From contig PQAM01000005.1 of NCBI GenBank assembly GCA_003104975.1, forward strand, positions 1 through 34,678: a DNA stretch of 34,678 nucleotides, read 5' to 3'. The notes under the pieces are model-generated. The model was not told the origin of the DNA. It searched no databases and saw only the letters and a program-made list of their open reading frames with translations. Both the position numbers and the translations under genes were made by a program. The stretch comes from Candidatus Methylomirabilota bacterium (GTDB lineage: Bacteria; Methylomirabilota; Methylomirabilia; Methylomirabilales; Methylomirabilaceae). Positions 21,748 to 28,265 of the stretch are shown in pieces (the first letter of the stretch is position 1; every line of letters begins with the position of its first letter).

Positions 21748-23016
21748 CTACGTGAGGTGGGGCGAAGAGAGGGCAAGCTGCTCTCGGTACAATGGGAAGG
21801 CGTCGCACAGCTCTTTCACGCGGGCCGCAACCCCGGACAAGGCCGCCGTGTTCGACACATCCTTCAGGGCATCGGCGATGAGGTGTGCAATCTCCCTCAT
21901 TTCACCCTCCCGCATCCCCCGGGTGGTGACGGCCGGCGTGCCGATCCGGATACCCGAGGTCACCGTCGGCTTTGCGTCGTCGAATGGAATGGCGTTCTTG
22001 TTCGCCGTAATGCCGGCCTGATCCAATGCGGTCTCTGCCGCCTTTCCGGTCAACCCTTTCCCCCGCAGATCGATCAGCATCAGATGGGTATCGGTCCCCC
22101 CGGACACCAGACGGAAGCCGTGGCCCTGCAGCGCCTCGGCCAACGCCCTGGCGTTCGCCACAACCTGGCGTTGATACGCCGCAAACTCCGGCGTCAGCGC
22201 CTCGGCAAACGCAACCGCCTTGGCCGCGATGATGTGCATTAACGGACCGCCCTGCATCCCAGGAAAGACCTGCTTGTTCAGGACCGGGGCGTACGCGGCC
22301 TTGCACATGATCATCCCGCCCCGAGGTCCCCGAAGCGTCTTATGGGTGGTGGTCGTCACAAACTCGGCGTGGGGGATCGGGCTCGGATGCAACCCGGCCA
22401 CAATCAGACCGGCGATATGCGCGATATCGGTCATCACGAGCGCACCCACCTCTTTCGCAATCTCACTAAACATCGCAAAATCGAGGGTTCTCGGATAGGC
22501 ACTGGCGCCGACAACGATCAACTTGGGTCGGTGCGTGTTGGCCAGCGATCGGAGCACATCAACATCTATCCGCTCCGTCTCCCGATTGACCCCATACGGG
22601 ATCACTTGAAAGAAGCGGCCGGAGAAGTTGACCGGACTGCCGTGCGACAGGTGACCCCCGTGCGACAGGTTCAACCCGAGAATCGTGTCCCCAGGCTCCA
22701 GGACGGAAAAGTAGACCGCCATGTTGGCCTGCGTGCCGGAGTGCGGCTGGACGTTCACGTGGTCGGCGCCGAAGAGCCGCTTAGCCCGCTCGATGGCCAG
22801 GTTCTCCGCCATGTCGACGAACTCGCACCCGCCGTAGTAGCGTCGTCCCGAATAACCCTCGGCGTATTTGTTGGTCAGCGTCGAGCCGGCCGCCTCCATC
22901 ACCGCCGCGCTGACAAAATTCTCCGAGGCGATCAGCTCCAACTTACCGGCCTGCCGCTCGGTCTCGAGCCGAATAATCTCAGCGATTTCCGGGTCCACAT
23001 CGATCAGATGCTTCAC
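21748..23016 (-). CDS. glyA: Serine hydroxymethyltransferase
   Basis: The 422-residue PLP enzyme interconverts serine and glycine with tetrahydrofolate. It shows [38 protein letters not shown] and the lysine that holds PLP in [17 protein letters not shown] near residue 228. The start is GTG, with an AAGGAG ribosome site seven bases before. It heads a likely operon of glyA, nrdR, hemA, hemC and cobA/hemD. Supplying glycine or one-carbon units next to C5-pathway genes is a common but functionally loose arrangement. Confidence 0.96.
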
Positions 23017-23166: not shown

Positions 23167-23304
23167 GTCGTTGCGATGGAGCAGAGCGACCGAAGCAATC
23201 TCACCGTTTTTCGCCTCTGTCACTGCGGGATTGCTTCGGCTCCGCCTCGCAACGACACTGCGTGTCGGATTGCCGCACTCCCTTCGGTCGCTCGCGATGA
23301 CGGT
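23167..23304. repeat. Dispersed palindromic (MITE/REP-like) repeat, copies 2 and 2b
   Basis: GTCGTTGCGA at 23167 and TCGCAACGAC ending at 23256 bound a full copy with the inner pair GAAGCAATCTCAC / GGGATTGCTTCGG. A half copy (23262-23304) with GGATTGCCGC...CGCTCGCGATGACGG follows directly. It lies between the glyA promoter and the GrdB-like gene. The 293-bp gap holds nothing else besides that promoter. Confidence 0.75.
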
Positions 23305-23309
23305 GCTGT

Positions 23310-24104
23310 TCACATCAGCGAGGGGTGGGCCATCTCTTCCGCTTCCCAGGCGTCCAGCGGATCGTTGTCGTCCCACTTGTAGGGGAGTTGAAGGAGGGTG
23401 CCCGGCGTGGTCGCCGTTTCGAGCAGATGAAGCGCGTCGAGGATAATCCGGGTCTGCCCCTCCCGGTCAAACGGCTTGCCGGCCTGGTGACCGAGGGGAA
23501 AGTTCACAAAGACGGCTCGTGGCGGCTTAACGGAAGACGTGATGTCAAGAGCCGCCGACAGCATCACGGTCGGGATACCGGCCTCCTCAATGGCGCGGGC
23601 AAACAGTCCCACGGACTGGTGGCACAATTGTCAGACCGGGACCAAAAGGGCCGCATCGGTCCGGAGTTCTCGCAGCCGTCCAATCAGATGCGGCGCCATC
23701 TCTTTCTGAAGCCTGGTCCGCGTGAAGATCCGCCCCATGAAGGTGAAGGCGATAGAGGCCAGCGCGTCGATGCGTCCTTGAGCCTCTAGCTCCCTGAACC
23801 GTTCGAGGGGAAAGATGGTATTGAGGTCTTTGACGTCCCGGGCGTTCCTGGAGTAGTGCGAGATGCGCAGCTCAGCCAGATCGGCCGTTTTCGGGATCTC
23901 CCGAAAGGTCAGGTCGTTCTTGACCGGATTGAACGGCTCCTGGCTTATGTGATAGATCCCCCCTGAGCTGATCAGGGCGATCCGACATTCCCGGACCGGC
24001 TTGACCATCGGCGTCCAGGGACTGGTGAGATTCACCGTCCATTGGTAGGGCGGCTCGTTCGCATACAGCCGCCGAATTTGCTCAATGTAGGCCACCGGCG
24101 CCAT
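23310..24104 (-). CDS. GrdB-family putative selenoprotein (UGA read as selenocysteine at codon 158)
   Basis: Two open frames in the same register (24104-23634 and 23630-23310) are split only by TGA at 23633-23631. Read through as selenocysteine, they give one 264-residue protein. Before the UGA: ECRIALISSGGIYH near 39-52, HYSRNARDVKDLNTIFPLER near 83-102, and DALASIAFTFMGRIF near 113-127. After it: CHQSVGLFARAIEEAGIPTV. The site reads LLVPV-U-QLCHQSVG, a U-x-x-C redox motif where relatives of the glycine/sarcosine/betaine reductase selenoprotein B family carry Sec or Cys. A small hairpin sits 16-30 nt downstream. The start ATG has AAGGAAGG about a dozen bases before it. Substrate unknown; GrdA and GrdC partners are absent here. 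Confidence 0.78.
23604..23618 (-). promoter_or_regulatory. Candidate SECIS hairpin
   Basis: In the mRNA sense, CAGTCC-GTG-GGACTG forms a perfect 6-bp stem with a small loop containing GU. It begins 16 nt after the first base of the UGA codon. Bacterial SECIS elements lie inside the coding region just after the UGA and present a GU-containing apical loop to SelB, so position and loop fit. The stem is short, and bacterial SECIS elements vary widely. Confidence 0.4.
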
Positions 24105-24130
24105 ACTTTTTGCTCGCCTTCCTTCACATC

Positions 24131-24220
24131 GTCATTGCGAGCGACCGGCGGGAGCGTGGCAATCTCGCCGTTGTTGTCTCGCAAGACTGTGAGATTGCTT
24201 CGGCTTCGCCTCGCAATGAC
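24131..24220. repeat. Dispersed palindromic (MITE/REP-like) repeat, copy 3
   Basis: GTCATTGCGAG at the left and CTCGCAATGAC at the right bound the unit, with GGCAATCTCGCC and GTGAGATTGCTTCGG inside. It fills nearly the whole gap between the clpB stop (24232) and the GrdB-like gene. It could affect read-through between them. Confidence 0.75.
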
Positions 24221-24231
24221 ACAGGGGTCTC

Positions 24232-26826
24232 TCAACCTTTACTGAGGATCAACTCACCGCGGGCCGCATCGACCCGCACGGTGTCCCCCTCAGCAAACTC
24301 ATGTTCCAGGAGGCGGCGCGCCAAGGGGTCAAGCAGGACGCGCTGAATGGCCCGTTTCAGCGGCCGCGCCCCAAAGACCGGATCGTACCCCTCGTTCGCC
24401 AGGAACTCCTTGGCCGGCTCGGTCACCTCAAGATCAAGCTTCCGCTCGGCCAATCGCCGCGCCACCCGTTTGAGTTGGATTTCCACGATCGCCTTGATCT
24501 GGGTGAGCGAGAGGGGGTGGAAGATCAGGATCTCATCGACCCGGTTCAGGAACTCCGGCCGAAAGTGGACCCGGACGGCCTCCATCACCTGTCGCCGCAT
24601 CTCCTCCTCGTCCCGGCCGCCCAGTTCCTCAATGACCGGGCTGCCCAGGTTACTGGTCATAATGATGATCGTATTTTTGAAGTCGACGGTTCGCCCCTGG
24701 CCATCGGTCAGCCGTCCATCATCCAAAATCTGCAGCAGGACGTTGAAGACATCGGTGTGCGCCTTTTCGATCTCGTCCAACAGCAGGACGGCGTAGGGGC
24801 GGCGCCGGACCGCCTCGGTAAGCTGTCCCCCCTCCTCGAAGCCGACATAACCCGGCGGCGCGCCGATCAGGCGGGATACGGTGTGCTTCTCCATATACTC
24901 ACTCATGTCCAGGCGGACCATCGCCCGCTCGTCGTCGAACAGAAACTCGGCCAGCGCCCGGGCCAGCTCCGTCTTCCCCACGCCCGTCGGTCCCAGGAAG
25001 ATGAACGATCCGATCGGCCGGTTCGGGTCCTGCAGCCCAGAGCGGGCGCGCCGGATCGCGTCGCTCACCGCGCTGATCGCCTCATACTGCCCCACCACGC
25101 GCTCTCTCAGTTTCTGCTCCATGGTCAGCAGTTTCTGGGTCTCACCCTCCAGCATCCGCGAGACCGGAACCCCGGTCCACTTGGCGACCACCTGAGCGAC
25201 ATCCTCCTCGTCCACCTCCTCCTTGAGCATGGCGCCATCCTGTTGCACCTGCTCAAGGCCGCGCTTCTCGCCCTCCAGTTCCTTTTGGAGCGACGTAACC
25301 AGACCGTAGCGGAGTTCGGCCACCTTACCCAGATCACCCTGCCGCTCGGCGGCCTGTTCCTGCACCTTCGCCGCCTCGATCCGCTCCTTCAGACTCCTGA
25401 TCCGCTGAATGAACCCCTTCTCCTGCTCCCAGCGGCCCTTCAGGTGTTCCTCCTTCGCGCGGATTTCGGCCAGTTCGTTGGCAAGACGCGCAAGCCGTTC
25501 CTGCGACTCCGGATCGGTCTCCTTTTTCAGCGCCTCGCGTTCAACCTCGATCTGTCGAGCTCGGCGACTGAGTTCATCCAGTTCCGTCGGCATACTATCG
25601 ATCTCCATCCGCAGGCGAGACGCCGCCTCATCAATCAGATCGATCGCCTTATCCGGCAGAAACCGGTCGGTAATGTAGCGGTTGCTCAGGACAGCCGCCG
25701 CCACCAGCGCCGAATCCCTGACCCTTACGCCGTGGTGCACCTCGTATCGCTCTTTGAGCCCGCGAAGGATCGAGATCGTATCCTCCACCGACGGCTCGCC
25801 GACGACCACCGGTTGGAAGCGCCGCTCCAGCGCGGCATCCTTCTCCACCCGCTTCCGATATTCGTCGAGCGTCGTGGCCCCCACACATCGAAGCTCCCCC
25901 CGGGCGAGCGCCGGCTTCAGCATATTCGAGGCGTCCACGGCCCCTTCGGCGGCGCCGGCCCCCACAAGGGTGTGCAGTTCGTCGATAAAGAGGACGATCT
26001 GCCCCTCCTGCTCGGTCACCTCACGCAGGACCGCCTTCAGCCGATCCTCGAATTCGCCGCGGTACTTGCTCCCGGCCACCAGCGCGCCGATGTCCAGCGC
26101 CAGCACCCGCTTATTCTTGAGCGATTCGGGCACATCCCCATTGACAATCCGCTGCGCCAGCCCCTCCACGATGGCGGTCTTGCCCACCCCCGGCTCGCCG
26201 ATCAGAACCGGGTTGTTCTTGGTCCGCCGTGCCAGAACCTGGACCACCCGGCGGATCTCATCGTCCCGGCCGATTACCGGGTCCAGTTTCCCCTTTCGGG
26301 CCAGATCGGTCAGATCGCGCGCGTACCGTTCCAACGCCTGATACTTCTGCTCCGGCGTCTGGTCGGTCACACGCTGGCTGCCGCGCACCTCCTGCAACGC
26401 CGCGTAGATGTTGTCCTTTGTGATCCCGACCCCGCGCAGGACCCTCCCCGCTGCGCCGCCGTCATCGGCGATCGCCAACAGGAGATGCTCCGTACTCACA
26501 TATTCGTCCTTCAAACGTTCCGCCTCGGACAGCGCCGCACCCAGCACCTTTTCAAGACGCGTGGTGATATGGACCTGGCCCGGGGACCCGCCGGTCACCC
26601 TTGGCAGTCGTTTGAGTTCTTCCATGAGTTGCGCCGCAACCTGGTGGGGGCCGACCCCCATCTTTCTCAGGATCGGCTGGACCACCCCCTCGGCCTGCTC
26701 CACCAGCGCCAGCAACAGGTGCTCGACATCGATCGTCTGATGGTCCCGCTCCTCGGCCAGCTTTTGGGCCTGCTGGATCGCCTCCTGCGCCTTAAAAGTA
26801 AATTTATCGAATCGCATAAAGGCCAT
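24232..26826 (-). CDS. clpB: ATP-dependent disaggregase ClpB
   Basis: The 864-residue AAA+ chaperone resolves protein aggregates with DnaK. The N-domain begins [21 protein letters not shown]1 has Walker [14 protein letters not shown] near residue 208 and Walker [15 protein letters not shown] long coiled-coil middle domain spans about 400-530. NBD2 has [14 protein letters not shown] near 605 and [10 protein letters not shown]. The ATG at 26826 was chosen: GGAGGAG lies six bases before it and it gives the family's usual length, while the open frame continues upstream through the promoter. No CIRCE or heat-shock-sigma promoter was seen; a sigma70 promoter is present. Confidence 0.96.
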
Positions 26827-26860
26827 AGTCTCTCCTCCGCTGGGACTCTTGGTTTCTTTA

Positions 26861-26889
26861 ATCATAGGCATGGCATTCACGGTTGTCAA
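26861..26889 (-). promoter_or_regulatory. Sigma70-type promoter of clpB
   Basis: On the minus strand, TTGACA (26889-26884) and TATGAT (26866-26861) are separated by 17 bp, nearly perfect consensus. The transcript should start near 26854, leaving a leader of about 28 bases with the ribosome site. Confidence 0.75.
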
Positions 26890-26943
26890 CGCTGCCGAAT
26901 CCCCAGGCAGTGCACCATTCTTCCAACCGCCGGCCCGGCGTGT

Positions 26944-26949
26944 TATGAT
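26944..26949 (+). promoter_or_regulatory. Possible -10 box of the HEAT-repeat lipoprotein gene
   Basis: TATGAT on the plus strand lies about 42 bp before the start codon, with TTCCAA (26921-26926) 17 bp upstream as a weak -35. It would be back to back with the clpB promoter. Confidence 0.4.
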
Positions 26950-26990
26950 TTCGTTAACGAACGCGATTCGCGCAGGAAGGACGGATATCG

Positions 26991-28265
26991 ATGAAGCGGT
27001 CCGGGTATCAGTGGGTCCTGCCGAGCCTGTTGATCGCCTTCCTGTTAGGCTGCGGCACACGCGATGATCGGGTGGTAGCGAGGGCGAAGGCCTTGGCGCT
27101 TGCCGGCAAGAGTTCTCAGTCCCTTCATCTGCTGACCAACTATCTGGTCCAATACCCTCACGCTACCGAACCTCGCCGCGCGAAGATCCTTCTGGCGATC
27201 CAGACCGAGCAATCGGAGGAGGCCCTTATCGATTACGCAGCGATCTCCGATTCGCAAGCGATCGAAGACACCGCCCTCCTTCACTTGCTTGCGCTCGGTC
27301 TGATCCGCGACGCGTGGCAACGCCATGAAGGTGTCCTCCGTGCGCGAGCCGCGGCTGCCATGACCGAACTGGCCGACCCGTCTTCCGATTGGCTTCTGAA
27401 ACGGGGCCTGGACCATCCAGACCCAACGGTCCGAGCGCTTGCCGCAAAGACAGTCGGGCGCACTCATGGGTTGACCTTGCAGGTACACCTGCAACGACTG
27501 CTGGATGATCCCGAACCGTTTGTCAGGGCCGAGGCTGCCTGGGCGATCGGCCAACTTGGCGCCTTGTCCGACCAATCTTTCCTACGACGAGCACTAGTGG
27601 ACCGCGACGCTCAGGTAAGGATCAAGGTCGGCGGCGCCCTTGTCATATTGGGTGACCGGCCCGCGCTCTCTCTTCTTGTCAACGCGCTTGACGCCCACGA
27701 TGCAGCGGTGAGGGCGGAGGCTGCCGAGGTGTTAGGGCTCCTCCTCGAACCGTCTGTTCGGATCCAGCTCGCACAACGGCTCCACGATCCTGATGGGTAT
27801 GTTAGACTCGCTGCCGCCCTCGCCTTAGCCAAGATGCAAGACCCATCGGCGCGTGCCTATCTGCTGACGACGCTCCAAGAAGACAAGACATTCCTCGGGC
27901 TGTTTGCCGGCGAGCTACTATCCAACCTGGGGGACCGCTCGGCGATTCCATTCCTGAAGGAGACAGTGCGGCGTGACGGAGATATCCCAACGCGGCTGTA
28001 CGCCGCATGGACGCTTGGACGGCTGGGCGATCGGTCCGGTCTGACCTCGGTAGCGGAGGCATTGAAACATCCCGATCCGGACCTGCGGGCATATGCCGCC
28101 TGGACCCTTGGAGAAATCGGAGGTGAGGAGGCAGCGGCACTACTGAAAAGCACCCTGCGCGACGAGGCTCCCGCCGTTGTGATGCATGCCGTCTGGGCGC
28201 TGGACCGGATCGCTCGCTCTCCGGCTGATAGCCCTCCCACTCCCGCCGGCAAGAAGCTCTCGTGA
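26991..28265 (+). CDS. HEAT-repeat lipoprotein
   Basis: The 424-residue protein has a lipoprotein signal (residues 1-21; lipobox LLGC with the cysteine at 21), so it is probably anchored in a membrane on the periplasmic side. From about residue 100 to the end it is built of HEAT-like/PBS-type repeats of about 31 residues, with recurring D-P-x-V-R-x-x-A-A-x-x-L-G patterns ([47 protein letters not shown]). Such repeats form protein-binding solenoids. The ribosome site AGGAAGGA precedes the ATG. It is divergent from clpB. The specific partner is unknown. Confidence 0.85.

Follow-up and report, generated by a model that had tools for sequence, protein, structure and literature searches.

The window analysed here is a stretch of 34,678 nucleotides from a Candidatus Methylomirabilota bacterium (contig PQAM01000005.1). 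Positions 23310 to 24104 hold a minus-strand gene which starts with an ATG at 24104, ends with a TGA at 23312-23310 and has a single internal TGA, codon 158, at 23633-23631. The initial annotation had proposed a selenoprotein at this place; its coordinates, the codon number and the motif VPV-U-QLCHQSVG, in which Sec158 would lie, were all correct, and the strand, which it did not give, is the minus strand. A plus-strand reading of 23310-24104 was rejected, as the plus strand has no gene there. The features are:

23310..24104, minus strand: PrdB-like gene, predicted selenoprotein; 264 codons including Sec158, ATG start, TGA stop
23631..23633, minus strand: in-frame UGA, codon 158, read as selenocysteine; TGA in 97 of 97 unique homologous sequences
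23622..23624, minus strand: Cys161 codon, second residue of U-x-x-C; Asp in one distant subgroup
23602..23620, minus strand: predicted SECIS hairpin ACCAGUCC-GUG-GGACUGUU, beginning 10 nt past the UGA; CAGUC/GACUG stem maintained by covariation
24015..24104, minus strand: N-terminal extension (PVAYIEQIRRLYANEPPYQW...), also present in Cys-containing alphaproteobacterial relatives and missing from true PrdB
24232..27060, minus strand: ClpB, upstream neighbour; start probably over-extended (942 aa by the first start codon vs 865 aa in orthologues)
21748..23016, minus strand: GlyA (serine hydroxymethyltransferase), downstream neighbour

Gene calling with translation table 11 yields two ORFs in one frame, of 157 aa (23631-24104) and 105 aa (23310-23627), which are the two broken genes that had been expected. 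Here, in a lineage of methane oxidisers, standard gene calling breaks up a conserved enzyme. The terminal TGA is the true gene end, because three orthologues of the genus have a TAA at exactly the same place.

Eleven orthologues in the genus, with 80-90% identity, have a TGA at codon 158 and an intact downstream half. We scanned 84,980 species genomes for homologues with a query that carried Cys at the Sec158 position and so did not favour TGA. It returned 80 loci from about eight phyla, judged by record titles, with TGA at the Sec158 codon in all 81 homologous places that cover it, and again the part downstream of the codon is intact. Homologues are found in 68 of the 95 genomes of the phylum, and almost every full-length one has exactly one TGA. 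Among more distant relatives, Roseomonas and Haematobacter have the Cys codon TGC at this position. The PrdB proteins of Terrisporobacter, Acetoanaerobium and Enterococcus have TGA at the Sec position and that of Paraclostridium has TGT (Cys). The alignment with homologues suggested in the initial annotation therefore shows a conserved TGA with Cys in some relatives, and neither an unrelated sense codon nor decay of the downstream half, both named beforehand as fatal to the selenoprotein reading, was seen.

Downstream of the UGA, comparisons within the genus gave 29-42 codons with synonymous differences vs 9-15 with replacements (of 105 codons), and synonymous differences likewise outnumber replacements upstream. 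This purifying selection on both sides, together with the fixation of the UGA across phyla and the covarying hairpin described below, argues against a true stop at codon 158, by which the gene would be a pseudogene or give a 157-aa product only. Such a reading has on its side that mechanical gene calling yields two ORFs, and we consider it barely conceivable.

The hairpin has a core stem-loop that begins 12 nt past the UGA and reads CAGUC(CGUGG)GACUG or a variant in which pairing is kept. The variants of the core stem are CAAUC/GAUUG, CAGAC/GUCUG, CAGGC/GCCUG and CAAGC/GCUUG. Across 44 distinct sequences the stem is paired in 94% of cells, compared with 7-49% when the partners are slid. Its covariation score is 0.174 vs 0.070 +/- 0.010 for shuffles, none of the 500 being equally high, and RNAalifold recovers the same stem unprompted. 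In five rows CAG/CTG is replaced by CAA/TTG, and since these changes are synonymous on both sides of the stem, protein constraint cannot account for them. Codon choice within the hairpin is also distinctive: its Gly codon is GGA in 82 of 97 sequences vs 165 of 1282 Gly codons (13%) elsewhere in the same genes, and its Ser codon is TCC in 86 of 89 vs 304 of 1038 (29%). Folded as a single sequence, the hairpin of the window has no greater stability than its shuffles (z -0.54), so the case for a SECIS is one of sequence comparison. On that comparison, the conserved hairpin after the UGA is a predicted bacterial SECIS element.

The initial annotation held that the genome must encode SelA, SelB, SelD and tRNA-Sec. 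A search of the genome containing the window (3.0 Mb, 99.99% complete), whose close relatives bear the name Candidatus Methylomirabilis, found all four. The tRNA-Sec with UCA anticodon scores 65 bits with RF01852 and is called tRNA-SeC by ARAGORN; SelA, SelB and SelD were detected with 591, 380 and 412 bits. SelD has an in-frame TGA of its own, in the motif HGAG-U-ACK and followed by a hairpin at similar spacing, and is itself a selenoprotein. SelA is above the cut-off in all 15 genomes of the genus. In the proposed decoding, SelB bound to the hairpin after the UGA would deliver Sec-tRNA-Sec to codon 158.

A second gene resembling tRNA-Sec is present in the genome (G000:C3:50105-50202, minus strand; L002). 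It has a UCA anticodon, U73, a 7-bp acceptor stem, a 5-bp T-stem and a long variable arm, and scores 54 bits, above the Rfam tRNA-Sec cut-off; ARAGORN does not call it. Syntenic copies (L172, L173, L174) were found in three further genomes (G031, G033 and G034), two of which are near-identical. The copies are 95-98% identical over about 100 nt, with flanks at 76-88%, and the acceptor stem shows a compensatory change from C3-G70 to U3-A70. Since it is conserved above its flanks and has this compensatory pair, we take the second tRNA to be real. G031 has SelA and SelB, and the second-type tRNA is the sole UCA tRNA found there by search. It may be a tRNA-Cys of the selC* type or else another tRNA-Sec; selC*-like tRNA-Cys genes have been reported from other phyla, and Methylomirabilota is not among the phyla named there (PMC7609411).

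Such a tRNA could in principle place another residue at UGA. The gene at 23310-24104 might then encode a Cys enzyme, this tRNA (UCA anticodon, U73) reading the UGA as an ordinary residue, of which Cys is the likeliest. The conservation of the second tRNA and the precedent of selC* tRNA-Cys with these same features in other phyla (PMC7609411) fit this idea. However, the second tRNA is found in only four of the 15 genomes of the genus and UGA orthologues are kept in genomes without it, one of them the complete single-contig G025; as most orthologue-bearing genomes do not have it, it does not explain the UGA in the PrdB-like gene. Moreover, decoding by EF-Tu would have no use for a SECIS hairpin, and UGA also serves as an ordinary stop in this genome (clpB, hemC and the PrdB-like gene itself). 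We regard decoding as Cys as very improbable.

The sequence features by which bacterial selenoproteins are recognised were found, namely conservation on both sides of the UGA, a SECIS after it, tRNA-Sec with SelA, SelB and SelD, and Cys homologues. We are highly confident that the gene encodes one intact 264-residue selenoprotein with Sec158, and the selenocysteine assignment appears as secure as computation permits. The original proposal of a Sec158 in a U-x-x-C motif is backed by the machinery, the conserved UGA, the Cys relatives and the covarying SECIS.

The family assignment of the initial annotation, GrdB, was right for the superfamily and not for the nearest family. The GRDB model (Pfam: PF07355) gives 21.2 bits (E=2e-4), just below its gathering cut-off of 22, and the best profile is PrdB (TIGR04483) with 160.6 bits, which covers 219 residues (28-246) and lies below the equivalog cut-off of 300. 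With TIGR04483 PrdB the protein is homologous over these residues and has the Sec/Cys and the Cys of U-x-x-C in the same column; its identity to the PrdB proteins of Terrisporobacter, Enterococcus and Acetoanaerobium is 34-38%. Unlike PrdB, it has a 28-residue N-terminal extension, its motif is VPV-U-QLCHQSVG vs LTAG-U-GTCHRSA in PrdB, it scores about half the family cut-off, and it has no prdA, no prd operon and a separate position in the tree. GrdB, the selenoprotein B of glycine/sarcosine/betaine reductase, is homologous in its C-terminal half, with the Sec motif in the same column. It differs in length (models of about 431-435 positions vs 264 aa), in its motif U-x-x-C-x-x-C and in its partners GrdE and GrdA, neither of which is encoded here. 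Two alphaproteobacterial proteins named 'Glycine/sarcosine/betaine reductase selenoprotein B family protein' (WP_207415257.1 and WP_035710215.1) share the N-terminal extension and full-length homology at 34-37% identity and likewise have no partner nearby, but carry Cys (TGC) instead of Sec.

We defined a stand-alone N-extended PrdB-like group by the extension PxxYIxxxRxxY...PPYxW and the motif U-x-x-C-HQSVG, and the protein has both. In a tree of 104 rows it lies outside the PrdB group, beside proteins of Methylomirabilota and Rokubacteria, and all of these nest within a wider set that also takes in Chloroflexota and Syntrophaceae. In the same tree, two further paralogues from this genome, both with Sec, fall with true PrdB. 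These two PrdB-like selenoprotein genes (G000:C6:10842-11510, L052, and G000:C10:319032-319700, L053) have one TGA each, and a membrane protein and a MerA/lipoamide-dehydrogenase-like flavoprotein are encoded downstream of both.

A whole-genome search found no PrdA, no GrdA and no protein with PF09338 (pyruvoyl precursor) in this 99.99% complete genome, so the absence of reductase partners noted earlier for the window holds genome-wide. Both the GrdA and the PF09338 searches work, because elsewhere in the phylum they detected GrdA in 16 other genomes and PF09338 in 20. The GrdA and GrdE-type partners that mark a GrdB were not found in the genome either. The known PrdB/GrdB mechanism, with the substrate on a pyruvoyl subunit, is unavailable because the genome encodes no such subunit.

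As PrdA, GrdA and all PF09338 relatives are missing, the protein is unlikely to work as one of the known D-proline or glycine reductases. The TIGR04483 homology over 219 residues (E=4e-47) would fit a true PrdB of D-proline reductase or a subunit of a glycine-type reductase, but the score of 160.6 bits against a cut-off of 300, the missing partners and the place in the tree apart from PrdB make this quite improbable. We infer instead a stand-alone PrdB relative which may act alone on its substrate.

The genomic neighbourhood was compared over 92 loci and no constant partner was found, the clpB/glyA context being confined to the genus. Outside the genus the neighbours are CoA-transferases, SDR, GST, nitrilase, RNase III and exonuclease. 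As they differ between lineages, the neighbours give no substrate, and glyA and clpB were dropped as pointers to function because only the genus has this context. Related palindromic intergenic repeats (GATTGCTTCGGC...CTCGCAA(T/C)GAC) flank the gene at 23190-23305 and 24127-24222. These are up to 84-89% alike, and a further match with one mismatch lies near 1360, giving four matches vs 0.28 expected.

In the fold model (pLDDT 92, pTM 0.91), Sec158 comes after a strand (151-155) and directly before a helix (159-174). A sequence search of the PDB gave one chance match only and a fold search of the PDB with this model gave no match at E<=0.001. Because these searches found no solved relative, the chemistry is proposed by analogy. 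The Sec158 selenolate, at the N-terminus of the helix after the beta-strand, would reductively cleave a C-X (or S-S/S-X) bond of a small substrate. The oxidised Sec would next be resolved by Cys161, giving a selenenylsulfide that would be reduced by a dithiol system of the cell. This step would not apply to the whole family, because a distant subgroup has Asp in place of Cys161. In this U-x-x-D subgroup (L088 9419-10189, L126, L127, L135, L148 and L150) the Cys at Sec+3 is replaced by Asp in the motif U-PLDHQ(S/T)VG.

By analogy with PrdB and GrdB, we give C-X reductase chemistry about an even chance. The selenoprotein claim is shared by another reading, in which the protein is a general thiol/selenol oxidoreductase (oxidised-thiol repair, peroxides or electrophile detoxification) and not a metabolic C-X reductase. 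A U-x-x-C at the N-terminus of a helix is typical for redox proteins, and the variation of the neighbours by lineage (GST, CoA-transferase, SDR, nitrilase) would suit such a role. The characterised homologues, however, are substrate reductases, and the PDB search gave no thioredoxin-fold match (none at E<=0.001). We hold a general oxidoreductase to be quite possible, though short of an even chance.

Selenoproteins of this kind and selenium-rich Methylomirabilota are already known. Those of the PrdB/pfam07355 type rank with the most abundant selenoproteins both in the Sargasso Sea, with 42 genes (PMC1088965), and in the GOS metagenomes, with 235 sequences (PMC2398784), and Methylomirabilota are reported to be rich in selenoproteins, with up to 63 genes (PMC13188914). 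Less noticed is that the partner-less group stands apart from true PrdB and has Sec in nearly all cases. The Sargasso Sea and GOS 'PrdB' (PMC1088965, PMC2398784) are likewise pfam07355 proteins with U-x-x-C and more Sec than Cys forms, and many of them may belong to the stand-alone group and not to true PrdB. It is an evenly balanced proposition that the N-extended partner-less PrdB-like proteins are a selenoenzyme class of their own, nearly always with Sec, present in about eight phyla and reducing its substrate without a pyruvoyl subunit, and that this class includes many 'PrdB' of oxic seawater misnamed as D-proline reductase. That a stand-alone protein is labelled 'PrdB' or 'GrdB' does not mean that its host ferments D-proline or glycine. 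Because the group consistently has Sec and not Cys, it is a promising place to look for a new selenium-dependent reaction.

In two relatives, a piece of 22-29 codons that resembles the C-terminus (66-70% identical) lies about 1-1.5 kb downstream of the gene (L023 3265-3345 / L055 9381-9461, and G024:C138:8917-8982). These pieces are probably the remnant of a tandem duplication.
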